Positions 6 to 10,486 of a DNA stretch of 21,833 nt are shown in pieces. Where the stretch lies: positions 1 to 21,833 of IMG/VR virus record IMGVR_UViG_3300009512_000097. One strand, written 5' to 3'. Source of the stretch: a virus. The notes below the pieces were generated by a model that made no database searches, had not been told where the DNA came from, and saw only the letters and a list, made by a program, of their open reading frames with translations. Each line of letters begins with the position of its first letter. The stretch's first letter is position 1. Both the position numbers and the translations under genes were made by a program.

Positions 6-257
6 ATGAAAAGTTTTAAAGAATTAAGAGAAAGCCAAATGATTTCTGAAAGAAATTATAAAGCTACATTAGATTTCGATATGGGCGATCCAAGAGAATA
101 CGCTGATGAATGGGAAGATGATAGAGTGTATATCGATACTTGGGACAAGAGAGAAAACGAACTTGTTGTTATGAGTAACGATAAACGAGGTTTAGAAAAA
201 TGGTTGGTTGACGTATATGGGTTATCTAAAAAAGATGTAAGAGGAATGGTAAAATGA
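6..257 (+). CDS. Small head-internal protein candidate with N-terminal capsid-targeting-like tag
   Basis: An 83-residue acidic protein that I do not recognise by function. It starts MKSFKELRE-S, and two gp21-type sites follow early: L-R-E at residue 9 and I-S-E at residue 15. This matches the arrangement in T4 internal head proteins, where a ten-residue leader directs the protein into the prohead core and is removed by gp21 after (L/I)-x-E. The remainder is rich in D, E, W and Y, with no membrane segment or metal site. The ATG follows a TAA at positions 1-3 that probably ends an upstream gene. The last codons overlap the next gene by ATGA. The tag is seen directly; packaging is inferred from shared N-termini in the neighbouring genes. 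Confidence 0.75.
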   Translation: MKSFKELRESQMISERNYKATLDFDMGDPREYADEWEDDRVYIDTWDKRENELVVMSNDKRGLEKWLVDVYGLSKKDVRGMVK

Positions 258-712
258 AAAATTTTAAAGAATTGAGAACTAACTATAACACTCATTCTGA
301 ATCGGTTAACGAAAATTGGATGGATGACGAGCCTTATAGTAAAAAGGCTGCATCTGATTTAATCAAAACTGCAAAAAAATCTGTAAGTAAACTTAAAACG
401 GAAGATGATTTTAATGATTGGATGTCAGATACTGGATATACTATTATTAAAAAATATCACAAACCAGGCCCTTTTCATAAAGGCGTAAAGACAGATTTCT
501 TTAAAGATGCCGGTAGTGATTTATTTGCACGATACAAGAAAGAGTTATTAAAAGCATTAAGGCTTAAATTTGAAAACGTTGAAGAATCTTCAGCTTCATG
601 GGCAAAGTCACTAGAAGATATTGCCAAGAAAAAGCAATTAGATAAAATATCTGATAAAGACAAAAAGACGTTAATGAAGATAGCGGCTATGATGGCCAAG
701 GAAAAAAAGTAA
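254..712 (+). CDS. Tagged lysine-rich protein, probable head-internal protein
   Basis: A 152-residue, strongly basic protein of unknown function. It opens with MKNFKELR, almost the same as the preceding gene, followed by a polar linker to VNE at residue 20. That site is only a loose version of the gp21 signal, because V replaces L or I. The body is mostly predicted helix with many K and D/E residues. The last 45 residues form an amphipathic, charged segment (SLEDIAKKKQLDKISDKD, then methionine- and alanine-rich). No cysteine pairs, P-loop or membrane segment are visible. Its ATG overlaps the stop of the gene before (ATGA), and the next gene starts one base after its own stop, so translation is probably coupled. 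Confidence 0.75.
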   Translation: MKNFKELRTNYNTHSESVNENWMDDEPYSKKAASDLIKTAKKSVSKLKTEDDFNDWMSDTGYTIIKKYHKPGPFHKGVKTDFFKDAGSDLFARYKKELLKALRLKFENVEESSASWAKSLEDIAKKKQLDKISDKDKKTLMKIAAMMAKEKK

Positions 713-713
713 G

Positions 714-938
714 ATGAAAACATTTAAAGAAATAAGAGAAGGTGTATACACTAAGAATGACGGTGGTGCCTTTGACGGATTAAGAATAGCCAAATGGCTT
801 GCGAATGAAGATGGCAAATCTTGGAGAAAACTTAAGTATGGAGATACTGATTCGTATTTACGCGCTGCAGCTGATTTACTAAAGCAAGATAAAGCAAAGG
901 CCAAGAGTATTTTATCAAAGCCGACACCACGGGATTAA
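714..938 (+). CDS. Small tagged protein (MKTFKEIRE-G)
   Basis: A 74-residue basic protein of unknown function. The first nine residues, MKTFKEIRE, are nearly identical to the T4 internal-protein leader in spacing (M-K-T-aromatic-x-E-x-x-x-E). They end in I-R-E followed by G, a good gp21-type cleavage site. If cut there, a 65-residue product would remain, containing a short helical region (AAADLLKQDKAKAKSIL). It is one of a run of small genes with this tag between 6 and 3882. No enzyme motif is present. Confidence in the gene is good because of the tag and the tight packing; its role is inferred. Confidence 0.72.
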   Translation: MKTFKEIREGVYTKNDGGAFDGLRIAKWLANEDGKSWRKLKYGDTDSYLRAAADLLKQDKAKAKSILSKPTPRD

Positions 939-939
939 T

Positions 940-1227
940 ATGAATACTTTCCATGAAATTTTAAGAAGACAAAAGGCTGCTACAGCGTCTCTTCAGAATG
1001 CCAAGGATAAAAAGCTTTCAGAATCTGCTATGAGCGAAGGTCCATTAGTAATGTCTGATTCAGATATATTAGATACTATCTGGAAGAAAGTAAAACCAGA
1101 ATTACAAAAGGATATGTCTAAAGGTAAATTAGAAGTAGTTAACAACCTAGCTCGTATTGCTAAGTTTAAAATTACAAAGGACGGCCAAGCAAAAGGTAAA
1201 ACATACAGGTACGACTTAAAGAAATGA
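940..1227 (+). CDS. Tagged small basic protein with LSE-S site
   Basis: A 95-residue protein starting MNTFHEILRRQ. The aromatic at position 4 and the charged positions fit the tag family, but the linker is longer. The first gp21-type site is L-S-E at residue 28, followed by S. The mature part after that site would be about 67 residues, basic, ending in a lysine- and tyrosine-rich strand-like tail. I see no catalytic or binding motif. The ATG lies one base after the stop of the previous gene, and its own stop overlaps the following ATG (ATGA). Probably a packaged small protein, by analogy with its neighbours. Confidence 0.7.
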   Translation: MNTFHEILRRQKAATASLQNAKDKKLSESAMSEGPLVMSDSDILDTIWKKVKPELQKDMSKGKLEVVNNLARIAKFKITKDGQAKGKTYRYDLKK

Positions 1228-1913
1228 AAACCTTTGCGGAACATTCTTTATATGAACAAGACCTAGATGAGGCTTATAACTTTATTTTACCTGTCGCTTT
1301 AAAGATTGGTAAGGAAATAGTAAAACTAGCCGTACCTCCGCTAAGCTTAAAAGCTGCTGTAAAAGGAACAGTAATTTATAGTGTTGCAAAAAAATATGAT
1401 TTAACCGCAATAATTGAAATACAAAAGTTTGGTGTTGGGTTAATAGTGAGTGTTGGTAAATGGTTAGGCGTTGAAATATCAGCCAAGCTAGCAGCTGCAA
1501 TATTTACTAAGGCTGCGGCCATAGGAACTGTAACATTAGGTACTATACTGATAAGTGTTTTAGCGGTTAAGAATAAGTCTAAAGCAAAAGAAATTTATGC
1601 TAAAGCTATGAAAATTAGTAATGGTAAAAAATCAGAATTAAAATCTCTAGATGTAAAGTCTATAGATAAAAAACTAAAAACTAAAACGAAAGATTTAGAA
1701 GAAGGTACAGGTAAGAGTGAACCTTGGGAAGATGGATTTAAGCGTAGAGTAGTAAAGACTACAAAGCCAGAACATTTAGATAAAGGTTATAAGTGGAGAA
1801 TTAAGGGTAAAGATAGAGATGAGATCTCAATTAAGCTTTACAAAAGTAAACCAGATTTTGCTGAGTTTAAACAGCAAATGAAGAGAGTCGCAGGACATGA
1901 ATTCGGTGGATAA
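1224..1913 (+). CDS. Tagged protein with long hydrophobic, membrane-active-looking region
   Basis: A 229-residue protein in three parts. Residues 1-16 are the tag MKTFAEH plus two consecutive gp21-type sites, L-Y-E at 11 and L-D-E at 16 (the second followed by A). Residues about 17-115 are hydrophobic and alanine/valine/isoleucine-rich, with at least two stretches that could cross or lie in a membrane (about 48-80 and 88-115). Residues about 116-229 are highly charged and lysine-rich, with a tryptophan-containing basic tail. A hydrophobic domain on a protein predicted to be carried inside the head suggests it may act on the host membrane when DNA enters, but this is inference. Its end overlaps the next gene. 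No known family is recognised. Confidence 0.72.
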   Translation: MKTFAEHSLYEQDLDEAYNFILPVALKIGKEIVKLAVPPLSLKAAVKGTVIYSVAKKYDLTAIIEIQKFGVGLIVSVGKWLGVEISAKLAAAIFTKAAAIGTVTLGTILISVLAVKNKSKAKEIYAKAMKISNGKKSELKSLDVKSIDKKLKTKTKDLEEGTGKSEPWEDGFKRRVVKTTKPEHLDKGYKWRIKGKDRDEISIKLYKSKPDFAEFKQQMKRVAGHEFGG

Positions 1914-2571
1914 CTTTAAACAACATTTTAATATTATGGAAGGTGTAAATGATCCTTCTATTTTTAAAGCAGTATTCCTAGCGGGTGGACCAGGTTCTGG
2001 TAAATCATTTGTTGTAGGTAAGACTGCACTAAAAGCTCTTGGATTTAGATTGATAAATTCAGATGATGCTTTTGAGAAAGGATTAAAAAAAGCTGGTTTA
2101 ACTACTGATCCTGATGATATTGCGTCTGCTCAAGGCCAAGCGGCAAGAGCCAAGGCCAAAGCTATTACTGGTAAAATTATGACTAGAGCTTTAGAAGGCA
2201 GAATGGGTATTGTTATTGACGGTACTGGTAAAGACTATGCTAAAATTAAAAAGCAAGTTGACATGTTAAGAACTATTGGATATGCTGTACATATGATATT
2301 TGTTAATACTGATTTAGATACGGCATTAGAAAGAAATACAATGAGGCCACGTTCGTTGCCAGATGATATGGTAACTAAAATGTGGAAAGATGTACAAAAG
2401 AACATTGGTAAATTTCAAGGACTTTTTAGAAAACGCATGATTGTTATAGACAATTCTAAAGGGTCTGATATTGAACAATCTTCTTTAGAAGCATATAAAG
2501 ATATTAAAACCTGGGCGGCTAAAGCTCCAGAAAACGCCATTGCAATAAAATGGATAAAGGGACAAAAATGA
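1906..2571 (+). CDS. Tagged P-loop kinase / zeta-toxin-like ATPase
   Basis: A predicted P-loop phosphotransferase of the zeta-toxin/polynucleotide-kinase type. Numbering from the GTG start, it has Walker A GGPGSGKS at residues 27-34, NSDD at 51-54, a second strand IDGTG at 104-108, and a basic lid-like ERNTMRPR at 142-149. Substrate is unknown: RNA ends, nucleotides, sugar-nucleotides and proteins are all possible. I place the start at the GTG rather than the in-frame ATG at 1897. The GTG yields MDNFKQHFNIME-G, which restores the M-x-x-F tag and a gp21-type site I-M-E at residue 12, and it puts an AGGA about ten bases upstream. The stop overlaps the next ATG. The tag implies that an active enzyme may be packaged in the head and delivered to the host. 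The kinase fold is a confident call; packaging is inferred. Confidence 0.8.
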   Translation: MDNFKQHFNIMEGVNDPSIFKAVFLAGGPGSGKSFVVGKTALKALGFRLINSDDAFEKGLKKAGLTTDPDDIASAQGQAARAKAKAITGKIMTRALEGRMGIVIDGTGKDYAKIKKQVDMLRTIGYAVHMIFVNTDLDTALERNTMRPRSLPDDMVTKMWKDVQKNIGKFQGLFRKRMIVIDNSKGSDIEQSSLEAYKDIKTWAAKAPENAIAIKWIKGQK

Positions 2572-3062
2572 GAACATTTGCTGAACACATAGAACCAAAA
2601 ACCTTAGACGAAATTCTAGACATGCCTTTGCATGAAGCTACTATGCAGTTGGATATGAACGAAGGAGCTGCTGAAGCTGCTTTGATCGTCGTAATTGACC
2701 AAGGCGTAAAAGCTGTTTCGGGCTTACTTAAATACGGTACAATGGCCGCAAAGTTTGGTGGAAAGCAAGGCGTAAAAGCCGCTAAAAAACTTAAGAGCCG
2801 ATATTCTAAGCAGAACGTTGCAAATAGAAAAAGAGATAAAGCTCAAAGTAAAGCTGATAAATTGACTGATCTTAGACGAGCCAAAGAAGATTTGTTCGCA
2901 GCAAAGGAAACCATAGAATTCGAAAAAAATCGTTTATCAAACATTGCTGCAGATGAAAAAGCAATGAAGAAAGCCCAGATAGCCAAAGCTACAAAGGAAT
3001 TGGATAAAGCTTATAAAGAAGTTTTAAAGGGCTTAAAGAAATTAAAAGGAGTAAAGTTATGA
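2568..3062 (+). CDS. Tagged coiled-coil protein with short hydrophobic segment
   Basis: A 164-residue protein. I choose the ATG at 2568, not the in-frame ATG at 2550, because it gives MRTFAEH (the same tag as the gene at 1224), overlaps the previous stop as ATGA and has AAAGGGA just upstream. The leader contains two gp21-type sites, L-D-E at 15 and L-H-E at 23 (followed by A), and a weaker M-N-E at 32 (followed by G). A mildly hydrophobic segment spans about 34-62. From about 68 to the end the protein is a lysine/alanine-rich long helix or coiled coil. It resembles the gene at 1224 in layout (tag, hydrophobic part, basic part), although the bodies do not align clearly. No catalytic motif is visible. 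Confidence 0.72.
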   Translation: MRTFAEHIEPKTLDEILDMPLHEATMQLDMNEGAAEAALIVVIDQGVKAVSGLLKYGTMAAKFGGKQGVKAAKKLKSRYSKQNVANRKRDKAQSKADKLTDLRRAKEDLFAAKETIEFEKNRLSNIAADEKAMKKAQIAKATKELDKAYKEVLKGLKKLKGVKL

Positions 3063-3511
3063 ATAAAGAAGAATTAAAAGCAAGGGATAAAGTAGTATCC
3101 TCGTTTACTAGTAAGTGGAAGTATAAAACCGATAAAGAACAATTCGGTGCTGCTGATTCTTGGAAGATTATATACTCAGCAGATGCTGAAGGTAAGTTTG
3201 TCGGTGATTGCGAAGACTATTCACTATCGATTCTGTATAGACTATGTGGCGAAAGTCATCTAAAAATGTGGTGGATGCTATTAACCCATCAGGCTGGCAT
3301 TTGCTGTGTTGGTCCAAGTAAGTGGAAAGTATCTCATGCGGTGTTAAGATACAAAGGTGAATACGTTGATAACTGGACTAAGAAGTTTGGCGGTAAAGAT
3401 AAGATTGAAAAGAACCATACGTTCCATATATTTTACGGTTTTGGATGGGCATATTTTACTGCTATTAAAATGATTATTAGCAAAGCCGTAAGGACTATTA
3501 AGGGAAATTAA
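3059..3511 (+). CDS. Transglutaminase-like cysteine peptidase
   Basis: A 150-residue protein that fits the bacterial transglutaminase-like cysteine proteinase (BTLCP) group. It has GDCEDYSLS at 49-57 with the probable nucleophile Cys51, SHAVLRY at 92-98 with His93, and YVDNW at 102-106 with Asp104. The order and spacing Cys, His, Asp match a papain/transglutaminase triad. It lacks the M-x-x-F tag of its neighbours and has no signal peptide. The C-terminal 25 residues are aromatic and hydrophobic (FYGFGWAYF region) and may associate with a membrane. In this position it could be a peptidase or amidase acting on a phage or host protein during assembly or entry. ATGA overlap with the gene before and TAATG overlap with the next suggest coupled translation. 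Confidence 0.75.
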   Translation: MNKEELKARDKVVSSFTSKWKYKTDKEQFGAADSWKIIYSADAEGKFVGDCEDYSLSILYRLCGESHLKMWWMLLTHQAGICCVGPSKWKVSHAVLRYKGEYVDNWTKKFGGKDKIEKNHTFHIFYGFGWAYFTAIKMIISKAVRTIKGN

Positions 3512-3882
3512 TGCACAGCTTTTTAGAGCACATTGAAGAAAGGTTTGGTTTATACGAAGGACAACATGTTCCTTTAGATCAACCAATGATTGAAATAAAT
3601 GAAGAACCTGAACTTAATAAGCCGAAAAGATCAAGCGGCAAAAAGAAGTATGTGGTTTACGTTAACAATCCTAAGACAGGAAATGTTAAGAAGATTGAAT
3701 TTGGTGACGAAAAAGGTGGTTTAACGTCAAAGATAAATGACAAAGATGCAGCAAGAAGCTTTGCGGCTCGTCATAAGTGTGAGACTAAAACTGATAAAAC
3801 TAAACCAGGCTATTGGGCATGTAGATTGCCTAAATACGCCAAAGACTTGGGGCTTAAAGGTGGTGGATCTTACTTTTGGTAA
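3511..3882 (+). CDS. Tagged conserved marine-phage protein with C-terminal ARHKC / GYWACRLP motif
   Basis: A 123-residue protein starting MHSFLEHIEERFGLYE-G, a tag with the gp21-type site L-Y-E at residue 16. After an acidic linker the C-terminal 80 residues form a compact domain. It has a KKYVVYVNNPKTGNVKKIEF strand pair, then SFAARHKC, KTKPGYWACRLP and a final GGGSYFW. From memory, this domain (one Cys in each of two short motifs, ending in aromatic residues) recurs in many T4-like marine phage proteins without known function. The two cysteines about 16 residues apart could bind metal or form a pair, but there are too few for a classical zinc finger. It overlaps the following gene by about 23 bases in another frame. 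Confidence 0.75.
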   Translation: MHSFLEHIEERFGLYEGQHVPLDQPMIEINEEPELNKPKRSSGKKKYVVYVNNPKTGNVKKIEFGDEKGGLTSKINDKDAARSFAARHKCETKTDKTKPGYWACRLPKYAKDLGLKGGGSYFW

Positions 3883-4138
3883 ACCGTATTGGGAAGACGC
3901 GGATATAAGGGAATTTGACCCTTCTCGCGATGATGCAGAATTTGTGTGGCATCAGGATTTCGAAGATAGAGAAATAGAAATCCTTGATGGCGAAGGATGG
4001 CAATTTCAAATGCAGAAATGTTTGCCATGGCTTTTAAAGAAAGGTATGGTATTCGATGTTAAGAAGGAAGAATACCACAGAATAATAAAAGGTGTTACAC
4101 CTTTAAAGATTAGGATATTTAAATATGACAACAGCTAA
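3860..4138 (+). CDS. Small cupin-like conserved phage protein
   Basis: A protein of about 92 residues with the pattern TFGKPYWEDADIREFDP near the N-terminus, EGWQFQ at 45-50, and GMVFDVKKEEYHRIIKG at 62-78. The alternating strands and the late His73 look like a single small cupin barrel, though the full metal-binding motif is not clear (His31 and His73 are the candidates). The reading frame is open back to 3737, but upstream of 3860 it is only the shadow of the previous gene. GTG at 3860 or 3863 is the best start, with TTGGGG upstream. An overlap of about 23 bases with the previous gene results. It lacks the tag. Start certainty is low; the frame itself is convincing because its aromatic-rich, motif-like composition differs from the shadow. 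Confidence 0.62.
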   Translation: MVDLTFGKPYWEDADIREFDPSRDDAEFVWHQDFEDREIEILDGEGWQFQMQKCLPWLLKKGMVFDVKKEEYHRIIKGVTPLKIRIFKYDNS

Positions 4139-4421
4139 TGCACAAAGGGCAGAACAATCTGCCAGGCTGGATAGAATCGAAGAAAAAATCGATCGTATGT
4201 CTGACGCGATCATTTCTTTAGCGAGAGCTGAAGAAAAAATAGCCACTATGGCTGAGTTTGGCAGACAACAGGGAGAACAAATATTAGCTCTTATAAATAG
4301 AACTGATAGATTGGAAATAGCGGTACGCGAGAATGCGACCACTGTTAATGTAATAAATAAAATTTTCTGGATAGTACTAGTAGCCGCGGCTTCGACTATT
4401 ACAGGAATGTTCATACTATAG
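4125..4421 (+). CDS. XhlA/holin-associated-like protein: coiled coil plus C-terminal membrane anchor
   Basis: A 98-residue protein. Residues about 8-72 form a regular charged coiled coil (ARLDRIEEKIDRMSDAI and following). Residues about 78-97 are one strongly hydrophobic transmembrane helix ending at the C-terminus. This layout matches haemolysin XhlA-type proteins found near phage lysis genes, where the coiled coil sits in the cytoplasm and the tail anchors in the inner membrane. The spanin genes lie 4.5 kb downstream, so a role in lysis is possible but not shown; a virion or membrane-tether role is equally possible here. The ATG overlaps the preceding gene by 14 bases. Confident as a gene, moderate for the family. 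Confidence 0.65.
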   Translation: MTTANAQRAEQSARLDRIEEKIDRMSDAIISLARAEEKIATMAEFGRQQGEQILALINRTDRLEIAVRENATTVNVINKIFWIVLVAAASTITGMFIL

Positions 4422-4431
4422 GAGAACTAAT

Positions 4432-6423
4432 ATGAAACTTAACGATGATATTACTTTGAGCATTGCTGCAGCTGTTAGCGACGTACTCGAAGGTAAAGTA
4501 AAAGAGGAAGGAAAATATCCACACGATATGTTCCATCCCGAAACTGGCGAAAAGAAAGTAGCCAAAGACGAAGCAGAGCATAAAGCTCTTGCTGATAAGG
4601 GTTATACCCATGACAAACCAGAAGTTGACGAAGTAGCCGAGCCAAAAGCTAAAGGCGAAAAAGACTTTAAAGGTGCTCACAAGACTAAAAAATCTGGTGC
4701 TAAAGAAGACGGTACGGTTGTTAAAGAAGCCGAAGAAAGTGATGAAGAAGATGAAGAAGATCTAGATGAAGCTAAACTAAAAGCTGGTAAGGGCAAAGTT
4801 AAAGTTGATATTGATCACACTGGCGACGGTATTCCAGCAGCTGAAAAGCAGTTTAAGCTTAAGTTTAAGAAGCACTCAAGAAATGGTTATGATGTATCTG
4901 GAGAGAAAAAGAATATCTTAGCATTTTTACAATCTAAGTTGTACTCTATGGATACTGATGATATTGAAGAGTTATTTCCTGAGCTTTTAGAAGCTAAGTC
5001 TAAATTTCAAAAGCCACAAGTTAAAAAGGCGGTTGCGCTTGCTTTAAAAATGGGCGGTAATATGACTGGTGCTATTAAAAAGATTGAGCAAATGGTTAAA
5101 GGTTTATCTAAGGATGCCGAAGTAGCTGCTGCTTTGCAACTAGCAAACGAATCTGTTACTGAAGAAGTTCTTGATGAAGCTCATGCTATAAACAAAACTA
5201 AGACTAAGATGCAAGAAGATAAAGAAAGATATCAGAAATTCTTTAAGTCTGCTCTTAAGAAGTTTGGTGTTACTTCACCTGGTGACTTAGAAGGCGAGAA
5301 GAAGAAAGAATTCTTTAACTACGTTGATAAGAACTATGAAGCTGATAACGAAACTGATAAAGATGAAGGAACTTTACCTCCTGCTCTTCAGAAAGCAATC
5401 GATAAAAAGAATGGCAAAAAGACTGATGATGACGAAGTTGAAGAAAATAAAATGAATGAAGCTAAGAAAATTCAAGACATAGCTCGTAAGTATAAAAGAG
5501 AACTTCAGAAAATACAAAAAAGTGGTAACCTAGAGCTATCTAAGAAAGCAGAAGACGAATTATATCAATGGGCATCGAGCAATGGCGAAATCCGCGGAGA
5601 CGAAGAAGACGAATTTTGGAATTGGATAGATAAGAACGTTGATGATTTAATTAAAGGTAAAATCAAAGAAGAAACTATTGCTGAAGCATCGATTACAACT
5701 TTTACAGACTTTGATGACTACCCTATAGAAAAACAAGCTAAAGCGTTGAAGCTTAAAGTCAAAGCGATGAAAGGTAAAGGCAATAATAGCCAGGGCCATG
5801 ATAAAATGACACTTACTGGTAGCGAAAGTGATTTAATCAAATACTTTATTAAGTATATGGGAGCAGATAGGAACGCTAAATTTAGTGATATAAAAAGCGA
5901 ATTTAACGAATCGCTGGATGAAGGAACCTATCACAATGATTACTTGTGGGACGGTTCATCGAGTAGCGACATTAAAGCCGACATAAAGAACTGGACAAAA
6001 AAATACCCAGGCCTAAAGTTTAAACATACTGGCAGAAGTGGTGGCGAGGTTATTGGTGATACTAAGAAAATTGAAAAGTTTTTATTGGATGATCCAAGTA
6101 TGACAAAAGCTGAAGTTAAAACACTTTTATCAAAAGGTAGCCTTGGGCCATACTTTGGTGGTGTTTCTTTTGATGAAGGTACTATTGCAGAAGCTCAAAT
6201 CAGAACATCTTTTGAATCGGACGAAATGAAAAATGTTGGTGGTGACAAAGCTGCTAAGAAGCTGAAGATTAAAATCTCGTTTAAAAAAGGTAAAGGCGAT
6301 GGTATGATGGGTTCAGATGCTGGTATATTTACTGGTGATGAAAAGAACCTAGTTAAGTATTTCCAAGACTTTATGGGATTTGAAGGTAAAACTTTTAAAG
6401 AGTTGCAAAAAGAATATAGCTAA
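4432..6423 (+). CDS. Modular polyprotein with repeated gp21-type cleavage sites, probable head-internal protein
   Basis: A 663-residue, very charged protein with a good ribosome site (AGGAG) before the ATG. It reads as modules separated by (L/I)-x-E followed by A or G: LDE113-A, LLE187-A, LDE249-A, IAE418-A, LDE497-G and IAE587-A, with a weaker MNE343-A. IAE-A is the exact site used in the T4 internal-protein leader. Between sites lie an acidic N-terminal part (1-113), then segments of about 74, 62, 94, 75, 79, 90 and 76 residues. Segment 188-249 has VKKAVALALKMGGNMTGAIK. Segment 250-343 has YQKFFKSALKKFGVTSPGDL and FFNYVDKNY. Segments 419-497 and 588-663 are repeats of one fold, and 114-187 and 498-587 share its core pattern. 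Segment 344-418 matches the gene at 8106-8588. The simplest reading is a precursor cut into several small internal head proteins by the prohead protease. Confidence 0.8.
   Translation: MKLNDDITLSIAAAVSDVLEGKVKEEGKYPHDMFHPETGEKKVAKDEAEHKALADKGYTHDKPEVDEVAEPKAKGEKDFKGAHKTKKSGAKEDGTVVKEAEESDEEDEEDLDEAKLKAGKGKVKVDIDHTGDGIPAAEKQFKLKFKKHSRNGYDVSGEKKNILAFLQSKLYSMDTDDIEELFPELLEAKSKFQKPQVKKAVALALKMGGNMTGAIKKIEQMVKGLSKDAEVAAALQLANESVTEEVLDEAHAINKTKTKMQEDKERYQKFFKSALKKFGVTSPGDLEGEKKKEFFNYVDKNYEADNETDKDEGTLPPALQKAIDKKNGKKTDDDEVEENKMNEAKKIQDIARKYKRELQKIQKSGNLELSKKAEDELYQWASSNGEIRGDEEDEFWNWIDKNVDDLIKGKIKEETIAEASITTFTDFDDYPIEKQAKALKLKVKAMKGKGNNSQGHDKMTLTGSESDLIKYFIKYMGADRNAKFSDIKSEFNESLDEGTYHNDYLWDGSSSSDIKADIKNWTKKYPGLKFKHTGRSGGEVIGDTKKIEKFLLDDPSMTKAEVKTLLSKGSLGPYFGGVSFDEGTIAEAQIRTSFESDEMKNVGGDKAAKKLKIKISFKKGKGDGMMGSDAGIFTGDEKNLVKYFQDFMGFEGKTFKELQKEYS
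5686..5922 (+). repeat. Polyprotein module repeat, copy A (residues 419-497)
   Basis: Encodes one copy of a module whose partner is at 6193-6420. Shared protein pattern: K-x-A-K-x-LK-(L/I)-K, then K-G-K-G, then (L/F)-T-G-x-E, (D/N)-L-(I/V)-K-Y-F, a (Y/F)-M-G turn, and a final F-x-(D/E)-(I/L)-x-x-E-(F/Y). The similarity is at protein level; the DNA has diverged. A gp21-type site lies at each end (IAE418 before, LDE497 at the end). Confidence 0.75.
6193..6420 (+). repeat. Polyprotein module repeat, copy B (residues 588-663)
   Basis: Second copy of the module at 5686-5922, at the C-terminus of the polyprotein, preceded by IAE587-A. Conserved elements are KAAKKLKIK, KKGKGDG, FTGDEKNLVKYF, FMG and FKELQKEY. 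The modules at 4771-4992 and 5923-6192 keep only the strand-turn-helix core (K-x-K-F, then G followed by a helix ending in a hydrophobic-aromatic pair) and may be more distant copies. Confidence 0.7.
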
Positions 6424-6445
6424 AATTATCTAGTATAGATATTAT

Positions 6446-6817
6446 ATGATGAAAATATTTGATACACTGACAAGTAGGAACTTTGAGCTCTTCGCCTCAC
6501 ACCATTACAATAATCCGGAATGTATTGAGGTCGAAGAGTTTAAAGAAGATTTAACTAGGTTTAAGTATCTTAAAAGATTACTTAGACGTTATGAACAATC
6601 TGGTGATTTACAGGAAAGGCTTATACTAAATCACATTATAGTATTATATAATGTGTTTGGTATTTCTGCCGCCGATAAAATGATGTGGTTTAAAGTTGAA
6701 CCAGAGCATTACTCGGTACTGAAAACATTTTTAGTGTTCTTAAATTATATAGAAGAAGACTATAAGGTAGAAATACCTTTAGACAAAAACGTAATCGAAA
6801 GATTAAGGAAATTTTAA
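6446..6817 (+). CDS. Conserved T4-like marine phage protein, function unknown
   Basis: A 123-residue, mainly helical acidic/basic protein containing FASHHYNNPECIEVEEFKED, RFKYLKRLLRRYEQSGDLQER and LILNHIIVLYNVFGISAA. I recognise this pattern from proteins of similar length found in many marine T4-like phages, usually near virion genes, with no assigned function. There is no tag, membrane segment or metal site. Two in-frame ATGs (6446 and 6449) precede the conserved region and neither has a clear ribosome site. The 22-base gap before it is one of the few gaps in this region. The stop overlaps the next ATG (TAATG). Confidence 0.78.
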   Translation: MMKIFDTLTSRNFELFASHHYNNPECIEVEEFKEDLTRFKYLKRLLRRYEQSGDLQERLILNHIIVLYNVFGISAADKMMWFKVEPEHYSVLKTFLVFLNYIEEDYKVEIPLDKNVIERLRKF

Positions 6818-7413
6818 TGGGGATAATCTCAAGAACTGGTGACTTATTCTATGCCTTTAGGTTTCTAAAGTTATTAGTTACATCATGGGAAAATATGGAA
6901 GCTTATAGATTAGGTATTATCGATAATAACGGTAAAATACTTAAGAAAAAAGCAGACAGAAAAACGCCTCAAGAAAAGTCAGCGTATACTATTTTTCACA
7001 GATTAGTATTTAACATTAAAAGATTACTTAATAAAGTTCCAGGATCACTTGGAACCAAACTAGCAACATATGCTTCTGCATTGTTCCTGGTAAAAGAAGA
7101 AACTGGTCTAGACGATGATCAGTTACAAAAAGTTTTAAACGATATATTTGGAGACTTTGATGGATCCATTGATATATCAGAAAGTGCATCTTGGTTTGAT
7201 AAAAATAACCAACTTGCTCCTGGTGAATACATATTAGTACAAGAAATTGCCTCACCAAACACCGCTGAAATAATAGCAAATATAAATACAAAGGTAAACG
7301 TTTCAGAATTTACAGAACCTACTGGTTCTATTTTTGGTTTAAACGTCTATCAGGTTGAACACGTTTTAACTAAACAACAAATACTCATTACGAGTGCGGA
7401 TATAAAAAGATGA
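6817..7413 (+). CDS. Conserved phage virion-region protein, function unknown
   Basis: A 198-residue protein starting MGIISRTGDLFYAFRFLKLL. The N-terminal 90 residues are helical and basic, with a conserved-looking stretch around KSAYTIFHRLVFNIKRLLNK (residues about 50-70), followed by ATYASALFLVKEETG. The C-terminal half is more acidic and strand-rich. I believe homologues occur in marine T4-like phages next to the gene at 6446, but I cannot name a function. It has no (L/I)-x-E tag at the N-terminus, so I do not place it with the packaged set. The start overlaps the previous stop and its own stop overlaps the next ATG, suggesting one translational unit. Confidence 0.75.
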   Translation: MGIISRTGDLFYAFRFLKLLVTSWENMEAYRLGIIDNNGKILKKKADRKTPQEKSAYTIFHRLVFNIKRLLNKVPGSLGTKLATYASALFLVKEETGLDDDQLQKVLNDIFGDFDGSIDISESASWFDKNNQLAPGEYILVQEIASPNTAEIIANINTKVNVSEFTEPTGSIFGLNVYQVEHVLTKQQILITSADIKR

Positions 7414-7823
7414 AAACATTTAGAGACGTATGGGAAGACGCAGCAGCCAACTCTGTTGGGGGCGGTGGTGTAAACATGCCATCAGACGCAGTTCACGACA
7501 AGAAAAAGAAAAAGAAAGATATTTATGACGGCCGAACCAAAGCCGGCCGTAGATTTGTCGAAAGGATTTTAACTAGAAGAAAAGCTGCTGAGTCCAAAAA
7601 AGAAGTTAAAGAAAATGTAAACTCTGATGTAAAAAAGATTATGCCTTCTCTTGAAAAAGCTCTTAAGAAAGACAGACCTAAAAGTCTAAGAGATATTGAA
7701 AGGTTCTTTGATTACGGTGGCGGCGATATCGTCTTTGATAAAATAAAAAATGTAGATGCTGCAAATATGGCGATGCATCAAGCTAAAGAAATACTTATTA
7801 AAAAGTATAAGATAAAGGATTAG
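7410..7823 (+). CDS. Tagged basic protein with glycine-rich linker
   Basis: A 137-residue protein beginning MKTFRDVWEDAAANSVGGGG. The tag is present, but no clean (L/I)-x-E follows within 30 residues, so processing there is uncertain. Residues about 31-62 are extremely basic: a run of six lysines, then DGRTKAGRRFVERILTRRK. This could bind DNA or the packaged genome. The C-terminal part (about 70-137) is a separate small helical domain (IMPSLEKALKKDRPKSLRDI, then a GGGD turn). Structural or internal head protein is the likeliest role. ATGA overlap with the previous gene. Confidence 0.72.
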   Translation: MKTFRDVWEDAAANSVGGGGVNMPSDAVHDKKKKKKDIYDGRTKAGRRFVERILTRRKAAESKKEVKENVNSDVKKIMPSLEKALKKDRPKSLRDIERFFDYGGGDIVFDKIKNVDAANMAMHQAKEILIKKYKIKD

Positions 7824-7825
7824 AC

Positions 7826-8095
7826 ATGAAAACATTCGAGCAATTAAAAGAAGAACTGTCTAAGTATGATTTTAGATACTGGAGAGGAACTGAACTCGAG
7901 CTTAAAAACCGAGCATACGGACGTGACGTAGAAGCTGCATTTAAAAAAGCTGGATACGATGTATCAGGCCGTGATGTTAATGTGTCAGGAACCACAGTAA
8001 AGTTTAATAATATGAGCAAGCATTGGGGAACAGACGAGAAGAAACTCAAAGCGGCTATCAAAAAAGTATTAGGAATCGACGTCGATAAACTATAA
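7826..8095 (+). CDS. Small tagged protein (MKTFEQLKE)
   Basis: An 89-residue basic protein starting MKTFEQLKE-E. L-K-E at residue 9 is a gp21-type site at the same distance from the start as in the genes at 6 and 714. The body has a GRDVEAAFKKAGYDVSGRDV stretch followed by two short strands (VNVSGTTVKF) and a C-terminal lysine-rich helix, suggesting a small alpha/beta fold of about 75 residues after removal of the tag. GYDVSG also occurs in the polyprotein at residues 152-157, which may be chance. AAGGA upstream of the ATG supports the start. Confidence 0.72.
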   Translation: MKTFEQLKEELSKYDFRYWRGTELELKNRAYGRDVEAAFKKAGYDVSGRDVNVSGTTVKFNNMSKHWGTDEKKLKAAIKKVLGIDVDKL

Positions 8096-8105
8096 GGGAA
8101 ACACC

Positions 8106-8588
8106 ATGAAAGATTTTAAAGATTTTAGACCATCAAAAGAAGTTAAAGAAGACTATCGCGACATCATGAGGTTACACGACGATGATCCTGAATGGGTAAA
8201 AATAGTAAAAAAACACAAGCGAGCATTTGATGCTGTACGCAAGGGCAAAAAACTCCCTTTAAAGGTTGAAGATGAAATTCTCATATGGGCGGATCTTCGC
8301 GGTAGTGACAAAGACGACAAGAGGTTTATTGACAACCTTATATCTGTTTTAAAAGAAGGAACTACACCATTAAAAGAAGCTGATTCGTTTGATAAGTCTA
8401 AAGACAAAAACGTAGATCAAATACTTAAAAAAGCAGCAAGTCTTAAAGGACATCTGGCTAACCTAGAAAAGCTTGATAAGAAAGGCGAAGGAGCTGGCGA
8501 ACTATCTAAAGATCTTAAAAAAGTACAAAAGGCATACGCTGATTTTAATTACGCAATGAGTCAATTAGAAAACAGACTAGCATACTAA
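8106..8588 (+). CDS. Tagged two-module protein related to a polyprotein module
   Basis: A 160-residue protein starting MKDFKDF, with AAGGGA upstream. Residues about 31-84 resemble polyprotein residues 344-410: K-(H/Y)-KR, a short basic helix, L-x-L, then E-D-E-(I/L)-x-x-W-A, RG and an acidic run, then a hydrophobic helix. Two gp21-type sites follow directly, L-K-E84-G and L-K-E91-A. After them comes a second module (about 92-160), a pure charged coiled coil (SLKGHLANLEKLDKKGEGAG region). So it has the same construction rule as the polyprotein at 4432: modules joined by (L/I)-x-E-(A/G). Likely a packaged precursor yielding two small products. Confidence 0.75.
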   Translation: MKDFKDFRPSKEVKEDYRDIMRLHDDDPEWVKIVKKHKRAFDAVRKGKKLPLKVEDEILIWADLRGSDKDDKRFIDNLISVLKEGTTPLKEADSFDKSKDKNVDQILKKAASLKGHLANLEKLDKKGEGAGELSKDLKKVQKAYADFNYAMSQLENRLAY

Positions 8589-8589
8589 T

Positions 8590-8856
8590 ATGAATAAAGT
8601 GAAGAAACTATTGATTGGCATAAAAAATGCATTACGCAGATTTTGGATATGGATTAAATCATGGTTTCAAACCTTCCATACAGTTACGGTATCTTATAAT
8701 GCTGTATATGGCGACGGAGACGACCAAGTCTTTAAAAACGTCCCAAAAATAATAACTGAGAAAGAGAAAATTTTAGTCTTCATAGATGAAGAAGGCCGAA
8801 GAGTGAAGTTCGCGGGCGCGGATGGATTGAACTATAAGATAGAGGAACAAGATTAA
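8590..8856 (+). CDS. Small basic, amphipathic-headed protein, function unknown
   Basis: An 88-residue protein. The first 30 residues are basic and aromatic (NALRRFWIWIKSWFQTFH), likely an amphipathic helix lying on a membrane. The rest is a strand-rich domain of about 55 residues (TVTVSYNAVYGDGDDQVF, then ILVFIDEEGRRVKF). It stands between the tagged gene at 8106 and the spanin pair, and its stop overlaps the i-spanin ATG. The context hints at an envelope or lysis role, but I do not recognise the family. It lacks the head-protein tag. Confidence 0.68.
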   Translation: MNKVKKLLIGIKNALRRFWIWIKSWFQTFHTVTVSYNAVYGDGDDQVFKNVPKIITEKEKILVFIDEEGRRVKFAGADGLNYKIEEQD

Positions 8857-9239
8857 TGAATCAATTATTGATAGGAATAATATTGATACTAGGCCTAGGT
8901 GGTTACTGGTTACACCAGGAAAACCAAACACTAGTATCTAATAATGCAGCACTTGAAAGTGCGGTAGCTGAACAACAAGCTGCTTTCGAGGCGATGAAAG
9001 AATCCTTTGAAAAACAAGGACAGGCTTTACTTAATATGGGTAGAGTAAACGCAGCGATTGAAGCTGAAAAGGCGGAATATTTATCGATATTCGCAAGACA
9101 CAATTTAGATATGCTGGCAATTAAAAAGCCAGGACTGATGGAAAGTAGATTTAATAAAGGCAGTCAAGACGTGATGGAGGGATTAGAAGATGATACTAAG
9201 AAATTATACAGTATTACCGATACTACTAGCACTAACTAG
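8856..9239 (+). CDS. Probable inner-membrane spanin (Rz-like)
   Basis: A 127-residue protein. Residues 4-18 are a strongly hydrophobic N-terminal anchor (LLIGIILILGLGGYW), followed by about 60 residues of alanine/glutamate-rich coiled coil (ESAVAEQQAAFEAMKESFEK), then a polar C-terminus. This is the layout of i-spanins such as lambda Rz: one N-terminal transmembrane helix with a periplasmic coiled coil. The lipoprotein gene at 9190 starts inside its 3' end in another frame, as in overlapping Rz/Rz1 pairs. Together they would join inner and outer membranes and disrupt the outer membrane in the last step of lysis. The homology is structural rather than by sequence, so this is a strong inference, not proof. 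Confidence 0.7.
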   Translation: MNQLLIGIILILGLGGYWLHQENQTLVSNNAALESAVAEQQAAFEAMKESFEKQGQALLNMGRVNAAIEAEKAEYLSIFARHNLDMLAIKKPGLMESRFNKGSQDVMEGLEDDTKKLYSITDTTSTN

Positions 9240-9741
9240 TGGTTGTTCTTTACTAGGAACTAAGGAAATAGAGATTATCTCTAAGCCGGTTGAAATAGAA
9301 ATTATGCAACCAGATCTTCCAAGGCCTGTGGACTTAACTGCTCCTAATTGGTATGTTGTATCCGAAGCAAAGATTGCTAACCCTTGCGCAAAGCAGATGA
9401 AACTAAATGAGAAGGGTGAACACATTGTAAAAGACGATGGCACTCATGAGACATTTAGACCTAAAGCATGCGCTAAAGAAGATACAGAGAATCCTGAATG
9501 GCCTATTGGTTATACCTATTTAGATAGGTTCATGGATGAGATGAAAGAACAAAATAACGGAGAGATTGTTTTCGTTGCCACAACTATAGGTGATTATAAA
9601 GTAATGGCAGAAGATATGCAAGAACTAAAAAGGTATATCAAGCAATTAGGAGAAGTAGTAATATACTATAGAAATGTAACAATAAAAGATAAGCCTGCAG
9701 TAGGTGCAGCAATTGAGGTGAAAAAAGATGGCGACAAGTAG
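9190..9741 (+). CDS. Probable outer-membrane spanin lipoprotein (Rz1-like)
   Basis: A 183-residue lipoprotein. The signal peptide covers residues 1-18, ending in the lipobox-like T-S-G-Cys19. Ser at the +2 position predicts sorting to the outer membrane. A proline-rich stretch follows (QPDLPRPVDLTAPNWYVV). The C-terminal half holds a helix typical of phage spanin-associated proteins (DYKVMAEDMQELKRYIKQLG), then VVIYYRNVTI. The start overlaps the i-spanin gene by 50 bases in a different frame, with GGAGGG upstream of the ATG. It is much longer than classical Rz1 (about 60 residues), so it may be a two-component spanin partner with an added domain. Confidence 0.72.
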   Translation: MILRNYTVLPILLALTSGCSLLGTKEIEIISKPVEIEIMQPDLPRPVDLTAPNWYVVSEAKIANPCAKQMKLNEKGEHIVKDDGTHETFRPKACAKEDTENPEWPIGYTYLDRFMDEMKEQNNGEIVFVATTIGDYKVMAEDMQELKRYIKQLGEVVIYYRNVTIKDKPAVGAAIEVKKDGDK

Positions 9742-10486
9742 AATGAAAGAAACAATGACTGTATGGGAGAGGGCACAAGTAGCTGCCAAACTTTCGGCTA
9801 TCGCATATATGAATCCAAAACCAGCAGATACCGCATGTAAAAAACTAGGGTTTGCTTCAGGTAAAATTATTAGTAGGGATGGTGCAGAAGTACTCATTGC
9901 AAAAGATAGAAATGATCTATGGTTTGCTTTTAGAGGAACCGAACCTTCCAAGCTGAATGACGTACTTGCAGATTTGAAGGTTGTTAAAAATACAGCCAAA
10001 GCAGGTGGTAAAGTCCACGGCGGTTTCCAACAAGAAGTAGATGATGTCTGGATGGACATTGTAAAAGAACTAGAACATAATGACCAACTAAAGGTTCGCA
10101 AAGATGTATATTTCACTGGGCATAGTCTCGGTGCTGCGATGGCTACAATTAGTGCCACGCGATATCCGCCTACTGAGCTCTTCACATTTGGATCTCCAAG
10201 AGTTGGTGGAAAACACTTCATCAAAAATATCAAATGCGATCACTACAGATTTATGAATAACAATGATATCGTATGTAGAATCCCACCAGCTTGGTTAGGA
10301 TTTAGACATCACGGTACTATGATTTACTTTGACAGATTTGGTTTAAAGGCACTTAAGCCTACATGGGCTGATACATTTTATGGTATCGTTAACTCATGGA
10401 AAAGATTTAAATTCTTTGATGGAGTTGTAGATCACGGTATGCCAAATTATGTTCAAGCGTTAAAGACCCTATCTAAGGAGAAGTAA
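9728..10486 (+). CDS. Class 3 lipase (alpha/beta hydrolase)
   Basis: A 252-residue protein with the class 3 lipase landmarks in order: FAFRGTE at 66-72 (oxyanion region), VHGGF at 96-100, the nucleophile elbow GHSLGAAMA at 131-139 with Ser133, FTFGSPRVGG at 152-161, NNNDIVCRIPP at 177-187 with Asp180, and FRHHG at 192-196 with the probable catalytic His. All three catalytic residues appear intact. No signal peptide is visible. It would hydrolyse acylglycerols or phospholipids. Its position right after the spanin pair, overlapping the o-spanin stop by 14 bases and with GAGGTG upstream, suggests membrane breakdown at lysis; use during entry or host lipid turnover is also possible. Confidence 0.87.
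   Translation: MATSRMKETMTVWERAQVAAKLSAIAYMNPKPADTACKKLGFASGKIISRDGAEVLIAKDRNDLWFAFRGTEPSKLNDVLADLKVVKNTAKAGGKVHGGFQQEVDDVWMDIVKELEHNDQLKVRKDVYFTGHSLGAAMATISATRYPPTELFTFGSPRVGGKHFIKNIKCDHYRFMNNNDIVCRIPPAWLGFRHHGTMIYFDRFGLKALKPTWADTFYGIVNSWKRFKFFDGVVDHGMPNYVQALKTLSKEK

Follow-up and report, generated by a model that had tools for sequence, protein, structure and literature searches.

How a single viral gene can carry a series of apparent prohead-protease sites is the question raised by the open reading frame at 4432-6423 on the forward strand of IMG/VR virus record IMGVR_UViG_3300009512_000097. The 21,833 nucleotides analysed here (positions 1 to 21,833 of that record) are called the window. 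The reading frame was confirmed as real and encodes 663 aa. Our first-pass annotation had proposed that seven sites divide the protein into modules, that two of these sites are identical to the T4 leader cleavage, and that the chain is matured inside the prohead into several internal proteins. All seven sites (E113, E187, E249, E343, E418, E497 and E587) were present with the residues listed below, and the likeness to T4 was confirmed, as T4 ipII and ipIII (NC_000866) start with MKTYQEFIAE↓A (an arrow marks the bond after the Glu of a site). Two extra sites are probable: E20 (VLE↓G), directly after helix 6-19, and E99 (VKE↓A), beyond which the segments differ among relatives. The remaining [LIV]xE positions are 25, 67, 70, 180, 244, 338 and 413, and the segments after E113 have lengths of 74, 62, 94, 75, 79, 90 and 76 aa. 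The predicted layout is as follows.

4432..6423, forward strand: open reading frame of the predicted modular polyprotein, 663 aa, with a ribosome site (AGGAGA) upstream and six bases between its end and the ATG
4432..4491, forward strand: N-terminal leader, predicted cut VLE20↓G; motif conserved, unlike the MKTF type
4492..4770, forward strand: M0 segment (KYPHDMFHPETGEK...), ending at E113; E99 is a further likely site, and the segment is not site-free (V-x-E inside)
4771..4992, forward strand: M1, aa 114-187, behind LDE113↓A; [LIV]xE near the start in 17 of 20 distinct upstream contexts
4993..5178, forward strand: M2, aa 188-249, behind LLE187↓A; site in 25 of 33 contexts; leader-led versions, e.g. 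MKTFKELRE↓K in L046
5179..5460, forward strand: M3, aa 250-343, behind LDE249↓A; core start near a site in 24 of 46 contexts; leader-led copy in Vibrio phage Va1
5461..5685, forward strand: M4, aa 344-418, behind MNE343↓A (weak P3); site in 38 of 42 contexts; leader-led copies in L115, L014, L122, L127 and L153
5686..5922, forward strand: M5, aa 419-497, behind IAE418↓A; related to M7
5923..6192, forward strand: M6, aa 498-587, behind LDE497↓G; no independent relative found; weak profile match to M1
6193..6423, forward strand: M7, aa 588-663, behind IAE587↓A; predicted b-a-a-b-b-a-a

Strict sites of the form [LI]xE[AG] were more numerous in the 663-aa protein than in its shuffles (6 vs 1.24, P=0.0004), and the same comparison gave 1 vs 1.20 for the RNR large subunit of the window. 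The looser [LIV]xE was not significantly enriched (15 vs 10.9 in shuffles, P=0.11). Because the control baseline was itself slightly above one (134 vs 104.6 in 291 other ORFs from three relatives' contigs, some of these ORFs surely being spurious), the site count alone is modest evidence. The leader is a conserved N-terminal helix ending in VLE↓G, and the neighbours in the window carry T4-type MK-x-(F/Y) leaders. [LIV][LIV]EG stood at the leader end in 46 of 47 unique family members, a count that excludes the fragment L013 and three ORFs of another gene, and V18, E20 and G21 were invariant across the 17-sequence alignment used for folding. At those three loci (L028, L037 and L047) the ORF taken belongs to that other gene, which has M2 and M4 in common with this one. 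A Pfam search with the whole protein, in which remote domains could be missed, found no family over the cut-off, and a PHROGs search gave a single hit, on the M3 core (3.8e-5), to a PHROG of unassigned function.

Scanning IMG/VR yielded 56 loci, whose proteins had the N-terminal part in common and differed in their downstream content, the complete ones ranging from 178 to 655 aa. At L002, where the DNA around the gene is ~90% identical, M3 is followed directly by M7, with no M4, M5 or M6. Many shorter relatives lacked any [LIM]xE[AGS]; thus, not every family member is a chain. A scan with M4 gave at least 80 loci, and the product of window ORF 714-938, used in the same way, gave 13. Short proteins (79-161 aa) carry M4 after a leader, either MKSFNEYLLNE↓A, MKTFKELRE↓A, MKTFKEIRE↓R or MKRFKQLFE↓R; in other chains it follows VSE↓G, VEE↓A, ISE↓G or LSE↓G, and here it stands behind MNE↓A. 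The 714-938 unit (MKTFKEIRE↓GVYTKND) likewise recurs within chains, as SVNE↓GVYTKND and KLRE↓GRYTAND, and the start of the window kinase, IME↓GVNDPS, has the fused forms IKE↓GVYDQG (L107) and ITE↓GVYDPG (L082). For M3, E↓A with an aliphatic P3 occurred in 13 of the 22 contexts listed; L050, where M2 is likewise in front, is without it. The search for M6 relatives found one near-identical fragment only, and neither M4 nor the DLKNYQ module matched anything in the phage collection. Because profile comparison linked M1 to M5/M7 (P 2e-5 for a single pair, probability 77%) and to M6 (P 3e-5, probability 72%), M1, M5, M6 and M7 may all derive from one alpha-beta type by ancient duplication; M6 and M5/M7 gave no match to each other.

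Across 16 families, [LIV]xE lay near the unit start in 171 of 241 distinct upstream contexts (50.5 expected). The association was weak for the M3 core (24 contexts, 11.6 expected) and not seen for the EGNAFT module (2 of 13 contexts, 3.0 expected), and the M5 and M7 families each scored 1 of 7 (against 1.3 and 1.5 expected), as their models leave out the start of the unit, the site standing further up in the sequences. At the fixed anchors of seven families, P1 was E in 60 of 69 contexts, and P3 was L, I or V in 51 of the 60 E-anchored contexts, as against 21.9% before any E in the same proteins; P2 varied while P1 and P3 were kept, and P1' was N, G, D, S, E or A. In ten families, the site was present both in leader-led contexts, where it falls within the first 26 residues (20 of 24), and in fused contexts (111 of 139), with M1, M2 and M4 scored for any [LIV]xE from -8 to +3. 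Since the module seeds for the 16-family count had been hand-chosen after the sequences were read, some of them starting at a site, an unpicked similarity-onset test was run. From 7971 candidate protein pairs with a mid-chain onset of similarity, 2658 distinct ones were kept, and a motif was scored when it occupied the same offset in both proteins, either at the onset (-6 to +8) or in the interior (+20 to +34 and +30 to +44). A shared [LIV]xE was found at 711 of the 2658 onsets vs 43 and 44 in the interior windows, counts that are not independent, since shared ancestry links the contexts, the pairs and the members of each family. For xE with another P3 the corresponding numbers were 680 vs 1095 and 1055, for [LIV]xD 66 vs 108 and 121, and for [LIV]xK 198 vs 660 and 409. 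The commonest offset of [LIV]xE was +3, meaning that the similarity begins with the P3 residue. An earlier all-against-all test without a low-complexity filter gave a blurred, ~threefold peak and was repeated with filters.

Inside the units, [LIV]xE was depleted fivefold (31 seen vs 155.9 expected). It was below expectation in all 15 families with an expectation of at least 1 (M5 and M7 overlap), and the M4 interior had none in 43 sequences, where 42.4 were expected. [LIV]xD was close to expectation inside the units (263 vs 272.8), [LIV]xK exceeded it (562 vs 405.1), and [LIV]xE itself reached 854 vs 749.9 in 109 control ORFs of at least 300 aa. In the 663-aa protein, the M2-M7 cores contained no [LIV]xE (p=0.006, with bounds set by us) and the M1 core contained one. 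In T4, the mature internal proteins IPI, IPII and IPIII likewise had none (1.49, 0.91 and 1.44 expected; together 0 vs 3.8), and the scaffold proteins had 20 vs 10.1 (gp22), 6 vs 2.6 (gp68) and 3 vs 2.7 (gp67); in the gp22-like ORFs of six relatives, which were named by position, we counted 149 vs 93.9. The surviving T4 proteins gp23* and gp24* showed no depletion (5 vs 4.1 and 8 vs 7.2), and the eleven other leader-led proteins of the window showed a mild one (8 after the leader vs ~14.6, some of these being inner joints). On balance, the units behave like internal proteins that must survive, unlike scaffold.

A protease of the gp21 family (PF03420) was found in 6 of 14 relatives' records, with no match in the other 8 or in the window record, which is a 21.8-kb fragment. 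In all six protease-bearing records, I(S/G)E, with A, V or D as the next residue, is conserved in the N-terminal part of the major capsid protein (gp23). Its agreement with the L/I-X-E rule of T4 gp21, as given in the available text of PMC9026906, led us to treat this motif as a putative cleavage site. The capsid-targeting sequence of T4 and its propeptides of 10-20 residues are described in the portions available of PMC9026906, PMC3012670 and PMC5694885.

The first-pass annotation had also placed the sites in linkers between folded-looking modules. An AlphaFold model of the 663-aa protein was built from the 17-sequence alignment (mean pLDDT 62, pTM 0.25); a separate alignment with loose module pieces was misaligned and left out of the folding. 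E343 speaks against the linker placement, as it lies inside a predicted helix (332-364), though in a part of the model without homologues in the alignment. E113, E249, E497 and, as the last residue, E587 fell in stretches with pLDDT <50, E249 being within a low-confidence helix (244-251); coil was predicted at E187 and E418, with strands starting at 419 and 588. A fold search with M7 (model pLDDT 74) returned KH-like and ferredoxin-like matches, many of them KH, and a KH domain is not claimed, the best Foldseek E being 0.044 (none <=0.001) and the VIA Z at most 5.8, under the Z 8 guide.

In the window, region 6-8588 contains eleven further ORFs whose leaders are of the T4 type or resemble it and have a gp21-type site at their end, and by these leaders it looks like a head-cargo cluster.

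6..257, forward strand: small leader-led protein, MKSFKELRE↓S
254..712, forward strand: two-module leader-led protein, sites VNE↓N and VEE↓S
714..938, forward strand: single-module leader-led protein, MKTFKEIRE↓G; module fused in L159, L066 and L111
940..1227, forward strand: leader-like protein, MNTFHEIL..., possible MSE33↓G
1224..1913, forward strand: leader-led protein, MKTFAEHSLYEQDLDE↓A
1897..2571, forward strand: leader-led P-loop kinase, IME↓G; kinase fused in L107 and L082
2550..3062, forward strand: leader-like protein, MRTFAEHIE..., possible LHE29↓A
3511..3882, forward strand: leader-led protein, LYE↓G; Melnitz gene 18 ends with the same module
7410..7823, forward strand: leader-led protein, MKTFRDVWE↓D
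7826..8095, forward strand: leader-led protein, MKTFEQLKE↓E
8106..8588, forward strand: leader-led protein, MKDFKDF...VKE↓D; two inner sites, LKE↓G and LKE↓A

The kinase at 1897-2571 matches Pfam AAA_33/Zeta_toxin and is predicted head cargo. In relatives, it is fused behind another domain with a site at the joint; in L107 (1389-2726) that domain is cytidylyltransferase-like. The ORF at 3059-3511, within the cluster, has no obvious leader and a weak Peptidase_C93 (transglutaminase-like) match below the cut-off.

Related units were also found in cultured phages. Gene 18 of the Methylophilales phage Melnitz (650 aa) starts with MKKFSEIIE↓A followed by a cytidylyltransferase-like domain, and its C-terminal unit corresponds to the stand-alone unit of window 3511-3882 (52.6% identity); Melnitz genes 20 and 21 carry M0-like and M2 units. 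The terms proteome and mass spectrometry are absent from the main text of the Melnitz paper (PMC9004378). Vibrio phage Va1 encodes a 61-aa protein made of a leader and M3, MKQTFREFLNE↓K (L179 3962-4147), which is matched over at least 80% by eight records, phage pT24 accounting for two of them. This protein and its relatives are annotated as DNA ligase 1, probably a misannotation. In Pseudomonas phage SKa-4 (L178 5261-6688), the M3 core lies in a 475-aa protein between the portal and the head maturation protease, and T4 gp67 and gp68 occupy the stretch matching that position.

Most of the testable sequence-level predictions held, namely the recurrence behind T4-type leaders, the onset at [LIV]xE, the inner depletion, the gp21 protease and the gp23 IxE, and they support the reading of a prohead-cleaved polyprotein. 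We consider it probable, on the sequence evidence, that the 663-aa protein is a polyprotein of head-cargo units resembling the T4 internal proteins, cut apart in the prohead. What the sequences show is the sites, the recurrence of the modules, similarity that begins at the site, depletion within the units, and the protease and capsid motif in relatives; from these we infer cleavage, packaging, ejection and roles of the units in the host. The N-terminal helix (MKLNDDITLSIAAAVSDVLE) would bring the chain into the prohead core, where a gp21-type prohead protease would cut after the Glu of (L/I/V)-x-E, at the leader and in the linkers, freeing seven or eight units of 7-11 kDa that would stay in the head, as T4 IPI-III do, and probably be ejected with the DNA. 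The site would then be a joint: a unit starting just after one could ride alone behind a leader or within a chain, and units would be selected to lack an inner site. According to the available text of PMC3012670, the internal proteins of T4-type phages are a diverse set of defence proteins in which the leader alone is conserved, so that host takeover or counter-defence would be the likeliest use of the units. For marine T4-like phages more generally, it is likely that the prohead-protease site serves generally as the joint in a shuffled library of cargo modules for the head, enzymes included, in which one leader loads a whole set that is separated only inside the prohead; tailed phages would then have a cargo system based on polyproteins.

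Another explanation is that the protein belongs to the scaffold or core, in the manner of T4 gp22, gp67 and gp68, and that its many sites reflect its destruction inside the prohead. The protein is indeed highly charged, E/K-rich and full of sites, and the location of the M3 core in SKa-4 fits this explanation. However, its modules are without inner sites, whereas gp22 of T4 and of the six relatives is enriched in them; the sites lie at unit borders and the units are depleted, rather than sites being spread through the chain as in a scaffold. Moreover, the modules are found behind IP-type leaders, and six relatives have a gp22-like ORF of its own, located between gp21 and gp23. The T4 scaffold position beside the portal, gp21 and gp23 was not found in the six records with both genes, in all of which the homologue of the 663-aa gene lies, by coordinates, 38-41 kb from gp23. 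We consider a scaffold role unlikely.

It is also quite improbable, in our judgement, that a multi-domain protein is delivered whole, the protease removing only the leader and [LIV]xE reflecting a habit of recombination or of linkers. Domain shuffling alone could explain the recurrence, and packaging has been proposed for polyvalent phage proteins with multiple domains (PMC5512222, in the text available), but the retention of P3 and P1 with a variable P2 argues against it, and a depletion of [LIV]xE but not of [LIV]xD has no obvious reason absent proteolysis. Chance occurrence of the motif in an E-rich protein that is neither packaged nor cut would agree with the non-significant [LIV]xE count of the protein taken alone, but it is strongly disfavoured, to the point of being very improbable, by the P1 and P3 conservation at the anchors, the onset test (711 vs 43) and the inner depletion.

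The predicted polyprotein can be compared with several known systems. T4 IPI, IPII and IPIII carry a capsid-targeting sequence cut by gp21 at L/I-X-E (PMC9026906 and PMC3012670, in the text available), and the 663-aa protein shares with them (L/I/V)xE↓ at the end of the leader, mature units that, M0 aside, are largely free of the site, and the small size of the predicted products; the MKTF leaders of its neighbours resemble MKTFKEF of T4 ipI. However, T4 internal proteins have one protein per leader, whereas this chain has seven or more units that are shared between genes, and P3 at the joints is mostly V (26 of 60), unlike in T4. The chain of units and their exchange between genes would be what is new relative to the T4 system. 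Like the scaffold core of gp22, gp67 and gp68, the chain has many gp21-type sites, but these lie at unit borders and the units are site-depleted. With polyvalent proteins (Iyer et al. 2017, PMC5512222, as far as its available text goes) it shares many domains in one, likely packaged, phage polypeptide; a Pfam search that could miss remote domains found no family over the cut-off in it, and, unlike them, it would be released by a separate prohead protease rather than a fused peptidase. In phiKZ and SPN3US, head and ejection proteins are likewise cut after Glu by gp21 relatives, some at several sites, but there the extra cuts remove a propeptide and leave one mature protein (PMC10052503, PMC5694885 and PMC9026906, in the parts available). 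No described phage head polyprotein was found in the literature searched, most subscription journals being outside its scope. If our reading is correct, tailed phages use polyproteins for proteins carried in the head, which suggests how several proteins could be loaded into a T4-type capsid by one leader and how T4-like phages could quickly gain and lose injected factors. It would also provide a sequence rule, that units start after [LIV]xE and have none inside, for finding head cargo among marine phage proteins of unassigned function.

Elsewhere in the window, a class 3 lipase gene (9728-10486) adjoins overlapping membrane-protein-like and lipoprotein-like ORFs at 8856-9741, a pair that, we presume, resembles a spanin pair.
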